From: a virus
Length of the DNA stretch: 27,019 nucleotides
IMG/VR virus record: IMGVR_UViG_3300037963_005302
Location: 16,972-43,990 of that record
Reading direction: 5' to 3' (one strand)
Made by a program: the position numbers and the translations under genes. Of the stretch, positions 13,367 to 26,126 are shown one piece after another. Each line of letters starts with the position of its first letter. Within the stretch, counting starts at the first letter, position 1. The notes below the pieces were generated by a model, which saw only the letters and a list, made by a program, of their open reading frames with translations, was not told where the DNA came from and ran no database searches.

Positions 13367-13563
13367 AAAGTAAAGCCACTCTTTACAGAGTATACAATCG
13401 CAAAGGAGAATACCATCATGCCTATAGCCCCTCTTTAGAAGGAGCGTTGGTTTGGGCCATCGACTGCGCTAAAACAGTCAACGGTTCAGTCAGAGAGGTC
13501 TTTGAAGATGGGACCGAAAAAGAAGTTTTCACCTTCAAAAAGGAGGCAAAATGTTCGCGCTAA
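13363..13563 (+). CDS. Small hypothetical protein
   Basis: A 66-residue soluble protein of unknown function. Its ATG overlaps the stop of the previous gene (ATGA), and its last bases overlap the next start at 13551, so the three genes are probably translated from one mRNA. The composition is mixed, with aromatic residues near the N-terminus (YRVYNRKGEYHHAYSP) and a basic C-terminus (FKKEAKCSR). No known domain recognised. Confidence 0.6.
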   Translation: MKSKATLYRVYNRKGEYHHAYSPSLEGALVWAIDCAKTVNGSVREVFEDGTEKEVFTFKKEAKCSR

Positions 13564-13805
13564 TTAAATCTATTTTCAAATCTTTAGAACTTTTTCTTAG
13601 TTTAAAAAATAAAAAATTTTATTATGACTTATACTGGCAGCACAAAGAGACAGAGCAAGAGCTTATTTACCAAATTGAAGAGCTTAGGGAGAGTGGGGAT
13701 AGCAACGATGCTGATCGGGCTGACCTCCTGCGTAAGCAACTCAAATATGAGCGTGAACAATTTGAACATATATCAGCCTTCTACTCTAAGGCTCAAGAAG
13801 AATAG
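13551..13805 (+). CDS. Probable i-spanin (Rz-like), coiled-coil membrane-associated
   Basis: An 84-residue protein with a strong Shine-Dalgarno sequence (AGGAGG at 13541-13546). The N-terminus (FALIKSIFKSLELFLSL) is a hydrophobic or amphipathic helix, less hydrophobic than a usual signal anchor because of two lysines. The rest (residues 25-84) is charged and strongly helical, as expected for a periplasmic coiled coil. The +1 frame inside it carries a lipoprotein gene, the arrangement known for Rz/Rz1 spanins, which link inner and outer membranes in the last step of Gram-negative lysis. The pairing is the main argument; the weak membrane anchor is the main doubt. An alternative is another small coiled-coil protein. 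Confidence 0.6.
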   Translation: MFALIKSIFKSLELFLSLKNKKFYYDLYWQHKETEQELIYQIEELRESGDSNDADRADLLRKQLKYEREQFEHISAFYSKAQEE

Positions 13806-13908
13806 TCCTATTCAAACAATAGATGGAGTCTATACCCCTCAAACTGATGAGGTGTGGCACTCTGATGCTCGCTATAGGAGACTCGAAAGAGAAATTTATT
13901 CCAAATAA
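13624..13908 (+). CDS. Probable o-spanin lipoprotein (Rz1-like), overlapping out of frame
   Basis: A 94-residue protein whose first two thirds lie in a different frame inside the i-spanin gene, while the last 34 residues extend beyond it. A lysine-rich n-region (KRQSKSLFTKLKSLGR), hydrophobic core (VGIATMLIGL) and a good lipobox (LTSC, Cys36) predict cleavage and lipidation by the Lsp/Lgt pathway. The mature ~59 residues include polar stretches and a TPQTDEVWHSDARYRRLE tail. As an o-spanin it would sit in the outer membrane and pair with the i-spanin to fuse membranes at lysis. ATG at 13624 is the first start; an internal GTG or ATG closer to the hydrophobic core is possible. Confidence 0.62.
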   Translation: MTYTGSTKRQSKSLFTKLKSLGRVGIATMLIGLTSCVSNSNMSVNNLNIYQPSTLRLKKNSPIQTIDGVYTPQTDEVWHSDARYRRLEREIYSK

Positions 13909-13957: not shown

Positions 13958-14365
13958 ATGAGAATTTCATGGGAACAATACGCTTTAAATATAGCTAAAA
14001 CTGCCTCTGAACGAAGCGAAGACCCCTTCATGAAGGTTGGCGCATGCGCTTTAAATAAAGATAATATGGTCTTAGCTGTTGGCTATAATGGTTTAGCTAC
14101 AGGAAAAAAAGTAGATAAATACTTTTGGGCGGTAAGGCGAGATAGGAGACCTTACATGATTCATGCAGAAGCTAATTGTTTAAGCTTGGTGAAGAGGGGA
14201 GAGGTGGAATTATTAGCTGTTACTCTTTTGCCGTGCGCTTCATGTGCTACTTTAATAGCATCTTATAATATCCCTAAAGTTGTTTATGGCCAAGAATATG
14301 AACGAGACATGAAGGCTTTAGACATTTTTGACTTTTATAACATAGAATGTGTAAAATTGAGTTGA
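13958..14365 (+). CDS. Deoxycytidylate deaminase-like zinc deaminase
   Basis: A 135-residue member of the cytidine/deoxycytidylate deaminase superfamily. The zinc site is complete: H69-A-E71 (IHAEANC) and P92-C93-x-x-C96 (LPCASC). The N-terminal SEDPFMKVGACAL and VGYNG segments are typical of dCMP deaminases of the ComE/Dcd type. The likely reaction is dCMP to dUMP, feeding dTTP synthesis for phage DNA. It has a good Shine-Dalgarno sequence (GGAGG at 13947-13951). The allosteric dCTP/dTTP site of larger relatives cannot be judged. It may act on dCMP or on another cytosine nucleotide. Confidence 0.8.
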   Translation: MRISWEQYALNIAKTASERSEDPFMKVGACALNKDNMVLAVGYNGLATGKKVDKYFWAVRRDRRPYMIHAEANCLSLVKRGEVELLAVTLLPCASCATLIASYNIPKVVYGQEYERDMKALDIFDFYNIECVKLS

Positions 14366-15488: not shown

Positions 15489-16090
15489 GACCTAAGTTTA
15501 TTGTTTATTGCCTAGCGGCAATTTGTTTAACGTTTGGCTGGAGAGGCGCTACTCTCACAGAGGATATAAATAAGACCCTAGCAGAAAACGCTCGTCAATC
15601 AGAGTCGTCCATCATGGAGATTGGAATGTGCTTTGATTGGTATGGTGTAATTATCGTAGACTCTGTTATAAAAACTTCGCATGGTATTATATCTCCCAGT
15701 GAAATGGTTGAGGTTCTAGAGGAGGAAAGAGCAAATAAAGATGAATATCTAGAGGGCTACAAGAAAGATATTACTCCCGATGAGACCGAGTATGCAGATT
15801 TTGTTTTTGAGCAAGAGGAGAAAATAAACTCTTATGTTAGTCAATTGATTGAGTGGGGAAATAAAGAAGAAGTTGATAGCATTAAAGCTTCTATTCCTCA
15901 CATGTATACGATGACCGATCCAACTATCGAGGCTATCAATAACATTATGGATACTAAGATGTATTATAATGAAAGAAAGTCTGAGGAACTACATGAAAGA
16001 ATACATAATTTTAGAGACTTTATGATTCTGGCTATTGTTTTATCGGTTGTAATGTCAATATGTGCGTCATTTAGTAGGAGGTGTAGATGA
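15485..16090 (+). CDS. Two-TM helical protein between holin and endolysin, possible antiholin
   Basis: A 201-residue protein: N-terminal transmembrane or signal-anchor segment (residues 4-22, FIVYCLAAICLTFGW), a ~150-residue acidic all-helical region that should face the periplasm, and a second transmembrane segment (about 176-196, MILAIVLSVVMSICASF) ending in SRRCR. This TM-helical bundle-TM layout resembles the four-helix-bundle sensor domain of chemoreceptors without a signalling domain. It overlaps the holin stop (ATGA) and the endolysin start (ATGA). Its position suggests a lysis regulator or antiholin that senses the periplasm; that is inference. No sequence family is firmly recognised. 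Confidence 0.6.
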   Translation: MRPKFIVYCLAAICLTFGWRGATLTEDINKTLAENARQSESSIMEIGMCFDWYGVIIVDSVIKTSHGIISPSEMVEVLEEERANKDEYLEGYKKDITPDETEYADFVFEQEEKINSYVSQLIEWGNKEEVDSIKASIPHMYTMTDPTIEAINNIMDTKMYYNERKSEELHERIHNFRDFMILAIVLSVVMSICASFSRRCR

Positions 16091-16707
16091 ATTTTAAAGG
16101 AAAAAAAGAGGTAGTTAAGGCAGTCCAAAAGATTTTGGGAGTTTCTGCGGATGGTGCAGATGGTCCCGTTACATGGAATGCTATCTTAGCCAAACTCTCC
16201 ACAAAGGAAACTACTGCGCCCAAAGGAACCATTCCTGAAAAAATGGTTTCATTAGCAAGGGAAGAAATAGGGGTATCTGAAGTGGATGGTAGTAATTGTG
16301 GGCCAAGGGTAGATGAATACAAAGCGGCTACATGGTTAGATGCTGATAAGGGATGGCCGTGGTGTGCTGCTTTTATTTGTTGGTTAGTCAGGGAAGCCAT
16401 AGAGGGAGAGGATGTGTCCTTTAAACGTCCCAGAACCGCAGGAGCGTGGGACTTTGAAAACTGGGCTAAACAAGAATCAAATAGAGGAATAGAATTGCGT
16501 AAACCTACAAACGAAGATATTAAAGCTGGCGATATTGTTGTGTTTACTTTTTCTCATATTGGAATCGCGGTAAAAGACGTAGATTCAAGCGGTTATGTAG
16601 TCACCATTGAAGGTAATACTAATGGTGCTGGCAGTAGAGAGGGTGGTTCTGTCCTAGAAAAAAAACGTCACGTTTCAAAAATTCGCAGTAGAATAAGAAT
16701 TCTGTAG
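16087..16707 (+). CDS. Endolysin: N-terminal PG-binding-like region plus CHAP amidase/peptidase
   Basis: A 206-residue protein. Residues 5-35 (VVKAVQKILGVSADGADGPV) look like a peptidoglycan_binding_1 repeat. Residues ~48-206 form a CHAP-type cysteine peptidase/amidase with catalytic Cys93 in WPWCAAF, His157 in SHIGIAV and a polar third residue in IEGNTN (Glu175 or Asn177). There is no signal peptide, so it depends on the holin for export. An AGGAGG Shine-Dalgarno sequence lies at 16076-16081, and the start overlaps the stop of the two-TM gene. It cleaves peptidoglycan at the end of infection. Confidence 0.88.
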   Translation: MNFKGKKEVVKAVQKILGVSADGADGPVTWNAILAKLSTKETTAPKGTIPEKMVSLAREEIGVSEVDGSNCGPRVDEYKAATWLDADKGWPWCAAFICWLVREAIEGEDVSFKRPRTAGAWDFENWAKQESNRGIELRKPTNEDIKAGDIVVFTFSHIGIAVKDVDSSGYVVTIEGNTNGAGSREGGSVLEKKRHVSKIRSRIRIL

Positions 16708-16738: not shown

Positions 16739-17029
16739 ATGGAGAAAGTTAACATTAAGGTTAGTCGTCACGACATCTTTAATTATGTTGTTGGTCATTC
16801 TGTCTTTGACCCAATTGAAAAATGCATTGACCCCACAAGGTATGAAGTCTTGGACGGTTTTATTTACGATTCTAAAACGAAGCAACAGATAACACAAAGT
16901 CACGAATACCAGAGGTTTTGTTGGGAGGTAAGCAAACTTAAGCAGTTTACCGAAAAAATGAATAGGCGCGAAATTGAAAGCGTCTGCGAAGAAATCGAGG
17001 AGATCGCTCCAACCTACGTTTTACTTTAA
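16739..17029 (+). CDS. Hypothetical protein
   Basis: A 96-residue acidic soluble protein without recognised domain. The segment YEVLDGFIYDSKTKQQI and the charged helical C-terminus (NRREIESVCEEIEEI) suggest a small mixed fold. It starts a plus-strand unit that continues through the basic protein to the pyrophosphatase. Its predicted promoter places the transcription start at the ATG. Confidence 0.6.
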   Translation: MEKVNIKVSRHDIFNYVVGHSVFDPIEKCIDPTRYEVLDGFIYDSKTKQQITQSHEYQRFCWEVSKLKQFTEKMNRREIESVCEEIEEIAPTYVLL

Positions 17030-17030
17030 T

Positions 17031-17171
17031 ATGGCTAAAAAAACAACATCAGTATATTCCCTTAAGAAACAAAAGAGGAATAAAGGGGTTCACGCTAAAA
17101 GCAAAAGCTCTAATAATAAACAAAGTAAGCTCTATAAGAAAAAATATAGAGGGCAAGGTAAGAAGAGATGA
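17031..17171 (+). CDS. Small, highly basic protein
   Basis: A 46-residue protein with about 40 percent Lys/Arg (GVHAKSKSSNNKQSKLYKKK, then RGQGKKR). Short basic proteins with the KGVHAKSK...YKKKYRGQG pattern recur in marine phages; their function is unknown, and nucleic-acid binding is likely. The frame is open from 16974, but the ATG at 17031, two bases after the preceding stop, is the sensible start. Its stop overlaps the pyrophosphatase start (ATGA), so the two are coupled. Confidence 0.65.
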   Translation: MAKKTTSVYSLKKQKRNKGVHAKSKSSNNKQSKLYKKKYRGQGKKR

Positions 17172-17767
17172 ACTTAGTAAATGACATACCGATTACCACA
17201 GATGATTACGATCATATAAATTGTATTGTCGAGATTCCTAAGGGAACCAATACAAAATACGAGTATGATGAGAAATTAAATATATTTAAATTAGATAGAT
17301 GTTTAGTTTCTTCCCTAAAATATCCGATTAATTATGGTTTTGTCCCACAGACTATTGCATTGGATGATGATCCACTTGATGTTTTAGTTTTTAATCATGA
17401 CCCTATTGATAGGGGTAGTTTAGTTTCGTGTAGGGTTTTGGGGGTATTGGGTTTTGTTGATGGTGGGCAAATAGACAATAAAATTATTGCCGTTCCACAC
17501 TGGTCACCCATAGAAAAATATAAAACAGTTCATGATATTGAGTCTTCGCACCTTAAGATATATAGGCAATTTTTCAAAATATACAAGATAGACAGAGATT
17601 CTGATACCAAAGTGGGCGATTGGAGGTCTAGAAATGTTGCCCTCCAAATAACAAAAGATTCTTATGAAAGGTGGAAAAAAGCCAATAAAGAAAGATTTCA
17701 AGAAGAGTGGGCTGACAGAAATTTTTGGCAAAAAATGAGAAACTCAAGCCACGTTCAGCCCGATTAG
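17168..17767 (+). CDS. ppa: Family I soluble inorganic pyrophosphatase
   Basis: A 199-residue protein that hydrolyses pyrophosphate to phosphate. The family I signature D-x-D-P-x-D is present (DDDPLDVLV). All thirteen active-site residues of the E. coli enzyme can be aligned: E22, K30, E32, R44, Y56, D66, D68, D71, D98, D103, K105, Y139 and K140, so it should be active. Length is close to the bacterial enzymes (about 175 residues), with a C-terminal extension of ~25 residues (RFQEEWADRNFWQKM). It overlaps the small basic gene by four bases. In a phage it could pull DNA synthesis forward by removing pyrophosphate, or act in nucleotide supply; the physiological role is inference. Confidence 0.92.
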   Translation: MNLVNDIPITTDDYDHINCIVEIPKGTNTKYEYDEKLNIFKLDRCLVSSLKYPINYGFVPQTIALDDDPLDVLVFNHDPIDRGSLVSCRVLGVLGFVDGGQIDNKIIAVPHWSPIEKYKTVHDIESSHLKIYRQFFKIYKIDRDSDTKVGDWRSRNVALQITKDSYERWKKANKERFQEEWADRNFWQKMRNSSHVQPD

Positions 17768-17781: not shown

Positions 17782-17964
17782 ATGGATACTATTCTACAAC
17801 TAGTTCAGGATAACCCTTGGTTTGGTGTAGTTGCGTCTGTTATCGCTCTTGCGTCAGCAGTTGCGGCTGCAACCCCTACCCCTAAAGAGGGGACTTTTCT
17901 GTCCAAATTATATAAATTAATTGATTGGGCGGCTTTAAATATTGGGAAAGCCAAGCAGAAGTAA
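17782..17964 (+). CDS. Small one-TM protein, possible second holin
   Basis: A 60-residue protein with one hydrophobic segment (about residues 12-30, WFGVVASVIALASAVAA), a PTPKEGT linker and a C-terminal amphipathic helix rich in lysine (LYKLIDWAALNIGKAKQK). Proteins with this ATPTPKEG pattern are frequent in marine phages and are candidates for small holins or holin partners. It is monocistronic, between a GTGTAAATA motif and a terminator. The frame extends back to 17725, but that part lies inside the pyrophosphatase gene upstream of the motif, so ATG 17782 is chosen. Confidence 0.68.
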   Translation: MDTILQLVQDNPWFGVVASVIALASAVAAATPTPKEGTFLSKLYKLIDWAALNIGKAKQK

Positions 17965-17999: not shown

Positions 18000-18025
18000 A
18001 CCTCCATCCTTGGATGGGGGTTTTT
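18000..18025 (+). terminator. Rho-independent terminator after the 17782 gene
   Basis: Stem ACCTCCATC / GATGGGGGT with one G-T wobble and loop CTTG, followed by TTTTT. It lies 36 bases after the stop codon and insulates the next promoter. Confidence 0.88.
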
Positions 18026-21509: not shown

Positions 21510-21974
21510 ATGAATATATTTGCAGTAGACACTGACCCTAAGACCGCCGCACAACAGTTGTGCGATAAGCACGTTGTTAAAATGATTTTAGAATCAGCGC
21601 AGATGCTCTGCTCTGTGTTCCCGAATGGTGACGCACCATACAGGAGAGCATTCTACAATCACCCTTGCACTAAGTGGGCTAGAGAGTCAGCAGAGAACTA
21701 CGAGTGGTTGCTAGACCATGCTTATGCCATGTGTCAAGAGTATACCAGACGCTATGGTAAGGTTCATAAGTCTCTAGATGCTATCGGGTGGTGCGGATCT
21801 AATTACCACAAACTAAATATACCACGCAAAGGGTTGACTAAATTCGCACAAGCCATGCCAGAACAATACAAAAACGATTGTTCTGTTACTGCTTACAGGT
21901 CATACTATAACGGAGAGAAAGCTTACTTTGCTAAGTGGAGTAAGAGAGAGACACCATCTTGGTTCCATGCTTAA
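21510..21974 (+). CDS. Conserved phage protein of unknown function
   Basis: A 154-residue protein with a strongly patterned sequence: MNIFAVDTDP, LCDKHVVKMILESAQML, HPCTKWARES, NYEWLLDHAYAMCQEY, FAQAMPEQYK and AYRSYYNGEKAYFAKW. The same pattern recurs in many marine tailed phages and I know no proven function. Conserved Asp, His, Cys and Arg residues suggest an enzyme. It sits between the Nmad1-like gene and a short conserved unknown gene with which it overlaps by eight bases. Confidence 0.75.
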   Translation: MNIFAVDTDPKTAAQQLCDKHVVKMILESAQMLCSVFPNGDAPYRRAFYNHPCTKWARESAENYEWLLDHAYAMCQEYTRRYGKVHKSLDAIGWCGSNYHKLNIPRKGLTKFAQAMPEQYKNDCSVTAYRSYYNGEKAYFAKWSKRETPSWFHA

Positions 21975-22191: not shown

Positions 22192-22623
22192 ATGAAAGAA
22201 GACCAGCTAAATCTATTTAATATCAATGATTATGATCTGGTTTTTCATTTAGACCCCGATGATCCCAATACCAAAACCTGCAAAATCTGTGGAACAACAA
22301 AACCTTTAGAGCAATTTCCAAAACATTGTCATTACGCTGACAATTTAGATGTTAGGTGTAGAACTTGTATAAAAGAACACACGGAGTTAAGAAATTATTT
22401 AAAAAAAATATCTCCACCTCCTCCAGAACGGTGCGAGTGCTGTGGAGAAAAGTCAGACAAAAGCCTTCACTTAGATCACTGCCACACTACAAAAGAGTTT
22501 CGTGGCTGGCTTTGTGAGTCATGTAATACTGGACTTGGCAAGCTAGGAGACAACCTTAAGGGAGTTCAGAAAGCAGTATCTTATCTAAAAAGAGTCGAGA
22601 GCAAACAAAACGATGCAGGATGA
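22192..22623 (+). CDS. Recombination endonuclease VII-like HNH nuclease
   Basis: A 143-residue protein. The C-terminal half has the endonuclease VII (T4 gp49) fold signature: zinc cysteines C81/C84 and C108/C111, catalytic D95-H96 (LHLDHCHTT) and N112 (CESCNTGLG). The N-terminal half carries a second zinc-ribbon-like set (C30/C33, C56/C59). T4 endonuclease VII resolves branched DNA during packaging, while many stand-alone phage relatives act as free-standing homing nucleases; the sequence cannot tell which applies. It overlaps the sulfotransferase start by eleven bases. Confidence 0.83.
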   Translation: MKEDQLNLFNINDYDLVFHLDPDDPNTKTCKICGTTKPLEQFPKHCHYADNLDVRCRTCIKEHTELRNYLKKISPPPPERCECCGEKSDKSLHLDHCHTTKEFRGWLCESCNTGLGKLGDNLKGVQKAVSYLKRVESKQNDAG

Positions 22624-23296
22624 TTTTTTAAATTTTTTTAAAGCCGCCATAAAGGTGAGGCAAGATGATAGTCTTTTGAACAAAGATCACTTGTTGTTTT
22701 TGCGGATACCTAAAAACGCTAGCTCATCCATTATGCAGGTTCTAGGCACCCGAAATATAGTAAAAAGGTATGAGTCGGAGTTAACGGAGAAGTTAGACCA
22801 TAACATCTATAAGAAAGTCTTTGATGTAACTCATGCTCGCCCAGAAGAACTTCGGTCTGTCATAAATCCTCTTGAGCTTGATTGTTTTTCTTTTGCTGTT
22901 GTAAGAAATCCTTGGGATAGGGTTGTATCTATGTATCACTTTGGCAAAAAACTAGGTTTAGCCTACTTGTTTGGCTTAAAAAACGATTTATCTTTTAGTG
23001 GTTTCTGTAAAATTCTGAAAGATAGAGAGGGAGACCCTTTCTTTTTGCCCGTTTTCAAGCAGACAGAGTGGACAAATACTTCTTTGGGGTTAAACTGCAT
23101 ATTAAAATTCGAAAATCTCAGGGAAGACTACAAGTCTATGGTAGAAAAAAACAATATCTCTTGTGTTTCTTCTGATCTGCCTCACACCAATAAGAGTAAG
23201 CACTCGCATTATAAGGATTACTTTACTATTGAGGATAAAAAGTTAATTAAATCTATCTTTGAAGAAGACTGCGACACTTTTAGATATAGTTTTTAA
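22613..23296 (+). CDS. PAPS-dependent carbohydrate sulfotransferase-like protein
   Basis: A 227-residue protein of the sulfotransferase superfamily (Sulfotransfer_2 type). The 5'-phosphosulfate-binding loop is RIPKNASSS (K34, S37-S39) and the 3'-phosphate-binding motif is RNPWDRVVSMY (R98, S106). The end of the domain has LKFENLREDY, which recurs in this family. It has no signal peptide or membrane anchor, so it would act in the cytoplasm, moving sulfate from PAPS to a sugar or another acceptor. Possible targets are host surface glycans, to change receptors, or phage structures. It is the last gene of the long operon, before a GTGTAAATA element. Confidence 0.83.
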   Translation: MQDDFLNFFKAAIKVRQDDSLLNKDHLLFLRIPKNASSSIMQVLGTRNIVKRYESELTEKLDHNIYKKVFDVTHARPEELRSVINPLELDCFSFAVVRNPWDRVVSMYHFGKKLGLAYLFGLKNDLSFSGFCKILKDREGDPFFLPVFKQTEWTNTSLGLNCILKFENLREDYKSMVEKNNISCVSSDLPHTNKSKHSHYKDYFTIEDKKLIKSIFEEDCDTFRYSF

Positions 23297-24972: not shown

Positions 24973-25206
24973 ATGAACGAAACACCTAAGAAAAGAGGTC
25001 GCCCCAGAGGTTCCACTTCCTTTACTAGAGTCCTTCTCAGTGACCTAGCAAAGCAGTTGGGTTCTGAAGCGACCATAGTTGTCTCTAAACGTTGGTTGGA
25101 AGAAATTGGCTTGACTGTCGATCCCGCCCCTGTTAAAAGAGAACCTCTCCGTGAAGTAGCGGAACCAGAAGAGAAGATTCAATTCTCTGTAAACACGTTT
25201 GAGTAA
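24973..25206 (+). CDS. Small AT-hook DNA-binding protein
   Basis: A 77-residue protein with an AT-hook-like basic motif near the N-terminus (PKKRGRPRGSTS, core RGRPRG), which binds the minor groove of AT-rich DNA. The remainder has a short helix (LSDLAKQLGSEATIVVSKRW) and an acidic tail. The frame begins at 24922, but the promoter -10 box lies at 24958, downstream of that codon, so the ATG at 24973 is the likely start. Its stop overlaps the start of the AAA+ gene (TAATG), suggesting joint work on DNA. Confidence 0.72.
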   Translation: MNETPKKRGRPRGSTSFTRVLLSDLAKQLGSEATIVVSKRWLEEIGLTVDPAPVKREPLREVAEPEEKIQFSVNTFE

Positions 25207-26126
25207 TGAGCGAAACCACTGATATGTTTGAAGGTCTTGTCGGACAAGACACTCTTAAGAGTCGCCTTAACTTTTATAGCGATGCTAAGAAAGCTACAGG
25301 CACACTCCCTTTTCTTCTGTTCAATGGAGCGAAGGGATTAGGTAAGACAGAGTTTGCAAAAGCATTTGCTAAGTCTCTGGGTAAACCCATGATCGAAATT
25401 AATTGTTCTACCATTCGTAATGCAGAGCAGTTCTTTGAACAGGTTTTTATTCCTGCGATTCTGGACAAGGATGTTACCATCCTGTTGGATGAGGCTCATG
25501 CCTTACCGAAAGATTTGGAAATGGCTTTTCTGACCATCTTCAATATCGAGGGTGCTAAGACCAAACGATTTGAATTTGGTGAATCCAGTCTCTTGTTTGA
25601 GTTCGAAAGGCAGACTTTCTTGTTTGCTACTACCGAACTGGACAAACTGTTTCCTCCTTTTAAGGATCGTCTTACACAACTGGACTTCGAACCATACAGT
25701 GGAAAAGAGTTGGGTAGCATTATCCAGAAGAAGATGGATTGGATTGACTTCAAGGATAACATCCTTGATGAAATCTGTGAGACGGTGAGGGGTAATGCTC
25801 GCTCCGCAATCAAACGTGCATTGGAAGTCAGTGCATATGCAGAGGTTAATAACACCTCCACTTTCGGTAAGAAAGAATGGAAGAGTTTGTGTGATCTCCT
25901 GGGTATCATGCCATACGGTATCAATGCCACTGAGTTGCAGGTCATGCGTATCCTCAAGGAACGTGGAGCTTGCACCTTGCAGATGCTCTCTGCTGTGACA
26001 GGGATGTCGAGAACAGCACTCCAGAAGGATGCAGAGGTCTTCCTGCTGAAGAACGGTTTCATGCGAATCGACGGCAAGCGGGAGATCACTGGCAAGGGAG
26101 CTAAAGCACTCGAAAGGATAAGCTAA
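25206..26126 (+). CDS. RuvB-like AAA+ ATPase with winged-helix C-terminus
   Basis: A 306-residue AAA+ protein resembling RuvB, the Holliday-junction branch-migration motor. Walker A is GAKGLGKT (41-48), Walker B TILLDEAH (D95, E96), sensor 1 FATTEL (142-143), arginine finger in KDRL (R155) and sensor 2 in GNARSAIKRAL (R199). Residues ~235-306 (LQVMRILKERGACTLQMLSA, SRTALQKDAEVFLLKNGFM) form a winged-helix-like domain as in RuvB. It begins VGQDTLKSRL like RuvB's IGQ segment. No RuvA is seen. It may move branched DNA with the endonuclease VII-like protein, or load other factors. Third codon positions look more G/C-rich than in the neighbours, which may mean later acquisition. Confidence 0.82.
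   Translation: MSETTDMFEGLVGQDTLKSRLNFYSDAKKATGTLPFLLFNGAKGLGKTEFAKAFAKSLGKPMIEINCSTIRNAEQFFEQVFIPAILDKDVTILLDEAHALPKDLEMAFLTIFNIEGAKTKRFEFGESSLLFEFERQTFLFATTELDKLFPPFKDRLTQLDFEPYSGKELGSIIQKKMDWIDFKDNILDEICETVRGNARSAIKRALEVSAYAEVNNTSTFGKKEWKSLCDLLGIMPYGINATELQVMRILKERGACTLQMLSAVTGMSRTALQKDAEVFLLKNGFMRIDGKREITGKGAKALERIS

Follow-up and report, generated by a model that had tools for sequence, protein, structure and literature searches.

Known Phage Pyrophosphatases

Family I inorganic pyrophosphatases (PPases) hydrolyze pyrophosphate in a Mg-dependent manner, and their prokaryotic members are hexameric. Their genes have been reported from viruses before. In a study of soil viromes, ppa was listed among the phosphorus genes of phages, and two phage PPases, one from family I and the other from family II, were found to hydrolyze pyrophosphate in vitro (PMC10987575, 2024). 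Ppa genes were also noted in viromes in a paper on cellular contamination (PMC3877843). An exact-phrase literature search for phage-encoded or viral inorganic pyrophosphatase returned nothing. Here we analyzed a ppa gene located in a window of 27,019 nucleotides, which corresponds to bases 16,972 to 43,990 of a 43,990-base IMG/VR record. Compared by description, PPa1 of the soil viromes is, like the window ppa product, a phage-encoded family I enzyme with a complete active site. However, the soil-virome genes are sporadic auxiliary genes that were read as phosphorus acquisition (PMC10987575), whereas the window ppa is carried by a whole lineage. With cellular family I PPases (E. coli Ppa, Neisseria 5tea, plant 6mt1 and 4lug, archaeal 1twl and 3i98), the window enzyme shares the full domain, the active-site residues and the predicted fold, but it is at most about 40% identical to any cellular enzyme found, carries an extra tail of approximately 25 aa and is encoded by a phage. 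Phage PPases are thus already known; the present one has a better documented distribution in a lineage and belongs to a separate virus-only branch.

Identity, Fold, and Active Site of the Predicted Enzyme

The ppa product matched PF00719 over the entire profile (positions 1 to 153 of 153, residues 19 to 170) in a Pfam profile search, with an E-value of 3.2e-46 and 157.4 bits, exceeding the curated cut-off of 23.5 bits. Many solved family I PPases also matched the protein by sequence (best E-value 5e-31). The NCBIfam equivalog PRK01250 (bacterial Ppa) scored 135.8 bits, below its cut-off of 200; on these scores, the product would belong to the family of PRK01250 and lie outside that bacterial equivalog. 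An AlphaFold2 (AF2) model (pLDDT 84, pTM 0.80), built from an alignment that contained cellular homologues, adopted the OB-type beta-barrel fold of PPases. All top Foldseek matches to this model were PPases (E-values down to 4e-17), and the TM-scores against solved PPases ranged from 0.73 to 0.80 when normalized by query length. The open frame, the full PF00719 match and the predicted fold confirm the phage family I PPase proposed for this position in a preliminary description.

That description also stated that all metal- and pyrophosphate-binding residues of the E. coli enzyme were present, which we verified by alignment. The 14 residues, which we take to be E20, K29, E31, R43, Y51, Y55, D65, D67, D70, D97, D102, K104, Y141, and K142 of E. 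coli Ppa, correspond in this order to E22, K30, E32, R44, Y52, Y56, D66, D68, D71, D98, D103, K105, Y139, and K140. All 14 were identical to E. coli and did not vary among 24 viral homologues, and the same columns were obtained in a broader alignment that included an E. coli sequence from a database. When the alignment was enlarged with cellular enzymes, 13 of the 14 residues remained invariant, the exception being Y52, replaced by K in two rows (Neisseria and Moraxella). E98 of E. coli is not kept, as the phage protein has G99 instead. The window ppa is intact and its enzyme probably working, and pyrophosphate hydrolysis is the activity expected of its product.

The C-terminal extension of about 25 residues, previously singled out as unusual, is indeed present, but it proved to be a lineage-dependent and weakly constrained tail. 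The homologues ranged from 175 to 200 aa according to lineage, and since those of 175 aa have no tail, it is dispensable for the PPase family. In the AF2 model it forms a low-confidence helix in which block pLDDT drops from 72 to 52. The pN/pS ratio, computed on pairs differing by 3 to 25% in DNA, was 0.12 to 0.13 for residues 1 to 171, where synonymous change was near-saturated, and 0.32 to 0.41 for the tail. The core of ppa is under purifying selection, and the tail is apparently translated and weakly constrained.

Gene Neighborhood

The setting of ppa looks like a lysis region (Table 1), and the gene is flanked, as described earlier, by a basic peptide upstream and a holin-like gene downstream. 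The holin-like protein matched phrog_9685 (E-value 2e-7), which is annotated as of unknown function. Over 68 loci, the usual order was endolysin, the homologue of the 96-aa protein, basic peptide, ppa and holin-like gene, and it was kept in most of them. The ATGA-type overlap between basic peptide and ppa was found in 24 of 69 loci. Many relatives have insertions between these two genes, coding for a 166-aa protein (no Pfam match) or for proteins labeled by eye as glycosyltransferase-like or SET-like. The gene sits elsewhere in five relatives (L058, L059, L060, L063, and L065), where it is distant from the lysis genes and has a RuvB-like gene nearby. The basic peptide (...YKKKYRGQG...) has a conserved ending, directly precedes ppa in many relatives, and is retained without ppa in L221 and L248. 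It had no similarity match in deposited phages, the low-complexity filter having probably masked the query.

The record also carries tail genes of lambda-like type, and the phage encodes a DNA polymerase III alpha (DnaE-type) of its own. Since ppa shares its record with these tail and polymerase genes and with the endolysin gene, it lies among phage genes, as an auxiliary metabolic gene would, and its synteny extends over 68 loci. This conserved phage synteny argues against contamination for this ppa.

Table 1. Position of ppa, its neighbors, and other genes observed in the window.
Feature	Position	Strand	Basis or remark
Overlapping ORFs resembling inner/outer spanins	13551-13805 / 13624-13908		By eye; second with lipobox-like GLTSC
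dCMP/cytidine deaminase	13958-14365		
Endolysin (CHAP domain)	16087-16707	+	PF05257, PHROG endolysins; homologue in 59/68 loci
Conserved 96-aa protein, upstream of basic peptide	16739-17029	+	Homologue in 62/68 loci; no Pfam match
Very basic 46-aa peptide ORF (...KLYKKKYRGQGKKR), directly upstream of ppa	17031-17171	+	Stop overlaps ppa start (ATGA)
ppa, family I inorganic pyrophosphatase, 199 aa	17168-17767	+	ATG-to-TAG open frame; PF00719, active site, AF2/Foldseek, pN/pS
Lineage-specific C-terminal extension, residues 172-199	17681-17764	+	Missing in 175-aa homologues; pN/pS; low-confidence helix
Holin-like membrane protein, 60 aa, directly downstream of ppa	17782-17964	+	Hydrophobic stretch; homologue in 58/68 loci
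Intrinsic-terminator-like hairpin after holin-like gene	18000-18025	+	9-pair stem and T run; consensus match only
Pyrimidine-dimer glycosylase	21510-21974		
Endonuclease VII	22192-22623		
Sulfotransferase, 5 kb downstream of ppa	22613-23296		PF03567, E 1e-14
RuvB/clamp-loader-like ATPase	25206-26126		

Distribution of ppa in Deposited and Uncultured Phages

A scan of IMG/VR proteins returned 68 ppa relatives with 69 to 100% identity, and an alignment scan of the same database found relatives on at least 98 contigs, 80 of which were retained, down to 66% identity and on contigs of up to 106 kb. Among deposited phages (INPHARED, 50,697 records), there were 10 PPase matches, every one below 41% identity. 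No PHROG profile matched ppa, and neither the ppa group of this lineage nor a sister viral group was present in the deposited phage genomes searched. The rarity of the gene in phages, as first claimed, therefore holds for the deposited records, which contain no close copy, but not for IMG/VR.

Several of the INPHARED matches were discarded. Those from Moraxella and Acinetobacter were rejected as phage ppa because they sit in host DNA (at an attR end; on a contig with fadD and oprD). The PPases of records KR093641 and CAKLQH020000037, situated on a host-like contig or, in a prophage record, at its attR end, are a possible source of false reports of phage ppa. The Salmonella and E. coli matches were rejected as close copies, being less than 41% identical and resembling host ppa, as were the fetched gut-scaffold PPases, which clustered with cellular enzymes in the tree.

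The preliminary description had considered that ppa might turn out to be a standard gene of related phages. Many of them do carry it (68 to 98 loci), yet among 50 queried records of the lineage, many of them short fragments, 25 had exactly one PPase and 25 had none. The ppa-lacking contigs include some of 82, 80, and 78 kb. Contig L244 aligned with L159 at 88 to 90% identity on both sides of a stretch of approximately 545 bases of ppa that is missing in L244, leaving a deletion scar (L244:5403-5480) in which the first bases of ppa are joined to about its last 45 to 50. A gap of approximately 550 bases at ppa separates L248 and L221 from L066-L069, with flanks about 87 to 95% identical. In L213, L217, L222, and others, the ppa slot is occupied by genes that are glycosyltransferase-like by eye. 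Given the deletion scar, the gene-sized gaps and the unrelated genes in the slot, ppa appears to be an accessory gene carried at a site of variable content. We rejected ppa as an essential core gene, since it was absent from 25 of the 50 records and clearly so in L244, L248, and L221. It is a common but non-universal accessory gene of an uncultured phage lineage, and some close relatives have lost it.

Two further observations concern the ppa-lacking relatives. After the same holin-like gene, L213, L217, L222, L223, and L225 carry cupin, PfkB kinase, cytidylyltransferase-like and HAD genes, a combination reminiscent of pathways that make heptose or sugar nucleotides. A 113-aa neighbor in L221 was dismissed as MazG, its likeness being by eye and without a Pfam match.

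Phylogeny of the Viral Pyrophosphatases

Scans with a broader alignment recovered further viral PPases about 41 to 51% identical to the window PPase, the best cellular enzyme reaching about 40%. A tree was built from 65 sequences. It placed 36 viral PPases on one side (support 97/95) and 29 others on the opposite side, where archaeal, plant, Bacteroidota, Bdellovibrionota, and proteobacterial enzymes represented the cells. An earlier tree without PDB sequences gave the viral side a support of 99/99. Three viral or gut-scaffold PPases were placed among the cellular ones. The stem leading to this lineage was long (1.49), and midpoint rooting was used for drawing. The same side of the tree holds other IMG/VR viral PPases (L342, L346, L359, L368, L371, L376, L389, L392, and others, on contigs of up to 195 kb), which we refer to as the sister group. 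Their neighborhoods are unlike that of the window, several having cytidylyltransferases, APS kinase, and sulfotransferases.

Judged from this phylogeny, the window PPase sits in a virus-only branch, separate from the sampled cellular enzymes. The search for a donor, proposed with the first description of the gene, thus revealed no recent cellular source among the sampled groups. For these groups we rejected a recent host donor, given the best cellular identity of about 40% and the separate viral branch. The cellular sampling consisted of pattern-based scans, plasmid records and solved structures and left out SAR11, cyanobacterial and other marine hosts, so that unsampled hosts could change this verdict.

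Possible Functions

We propose that the soluble phage PPase acts as a pyrophosphate sink that pulls polymerase and nucleotidyl-transfer reactions forward, its gene being an accessory gene of a virus-specific branch and no recent capture from the sampled cells; we give this reading a probability of roughly 0.62. A soluble Mg-dependent family I PPase would be made by the phage, probably late, from the endolysin/holin block. It would split the pyrophosphate arising from phage DNA replication, RNA synthesis and nucleotidyl transfer into two phosphates, and this removal would relieve product inhibition and draw polymerization and transfer reactions forward. In this proposal we infer the PPase activity, its timing and which reaction benefits. 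A sink for polymerization is the simplest reading of the role of ppa, and a role in DNA synthesis is plausible. DNA polymerase III alpha was found in 8/8 ppa-lacking and 7/13 ppa-bearing records (some of them fragments) and so does not separate the two groups. Since several relatives of 50 to 82 kb have the same polymerase and no PPase in the contig, replication seemingly needs no ppa. Nor does the location suggest DNA synthesis, as ppa sits in a lysis block and not beside the replication genes. The host probably has its own PPase, which leaves the need for a phage copy unexplained.

The PPase could instead drive nucleotide activation for modification, providing PAPS for sulfation or NDP- and CDP-sugars for glycosylation. 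The sulfotransferase invoked in the preliminary description does exist in the window, and the record carries several glycosyltransferases. However, the PAPS-supply role suggested there did not fit this lineage, in which APS kinase was absent from all 21 records searched and sulfotransferase was found in only 2 of 13 ppa-bearing ones (some records being fragments); the search for a sulfation module covered APS kinase and sulfotransferase. Contrary to the prediction, cytidylyltransferase-like genes were commoner without ppa (7/8) than with it (4/13; some records being fragments), and a coupling of the two genes within the lineage was thus not supported. The PAPS role does fit the sister group: APS kinase occurs together with 3 to 11 sulfotransferases in 5 of its 8 records. 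In this group, moreover, ppa overlaps a cytidylyltransferase gene in L376 and L389, and an APS kinase-like gene follows ppa in L392. For the window ppa we consider nucleotide activation unlikely. The sister contigs L376, L379, L389, L392, and L359 (G059, G061, G064, G065, and G055), of 106 to 195 kb, each carry one APS kinase-like gene and 3 to 11 sulfotransferases plus cytidylyltransferases, an apparent phage sulfation program; L389 has an additional Inositol_P (CysQ-like) gene.

Phosphate scavenging, in which, at limiting phosphorus, the PPase would supply phosphate to DNA synthesis by the phage or to growth of the host, a role proposed for soil phages, appears quite improbable here. The classification of ppa as a phosphorus-acquisition auxiliary gene and the in vitro activity of a phage family I PPase speak for it (PMC10987575), but an unsystematic look noticed no phosphate-uptake gene beside ppa, no export signal was apparent by eye in its product, and the host enzyme normally recycles intracellular pyrophosphate. 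Finally, a role in lysis or host takeover, with a late PPase co-translated with the basic peptide and the holin-like protein shifting the energy or pyrophosphate balance of the host before lysis, agrees with the usual position between endolysin and holin-like gene and with the ATGA-type overlaps, but is made very improbable by the five relatives with ppa away from the lysis genes and by the unrelated genes in the slot of others, which suggest a variable cargo site and no functional lysis unit.

Implications for Phage Biology

As a member of a virus-only branch that many uncultured phages carry and some close relatives have lost, ppa is best seen as a helpful accessory gene and no new kind of system. 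We advance tentatively, and as somewhat doubtful, the wider idea that viruses keep an old PPase branch apart from cells, common to distinct large uncultured lineages, because pyrophosphate removal limits phage production; these lineages would couple the PPase to different pathways, namely to polymerization here, and in the sister group to sulfation together with the making of sugar nucleotides. Since otherwise similar phages occur naturally in pairs with and without ppa, the advantage it confers can be put to the test. The presence of a virus-only branch widespread in uncultured phages suggests that phage PPases are more than sporadic captures from their hosts.
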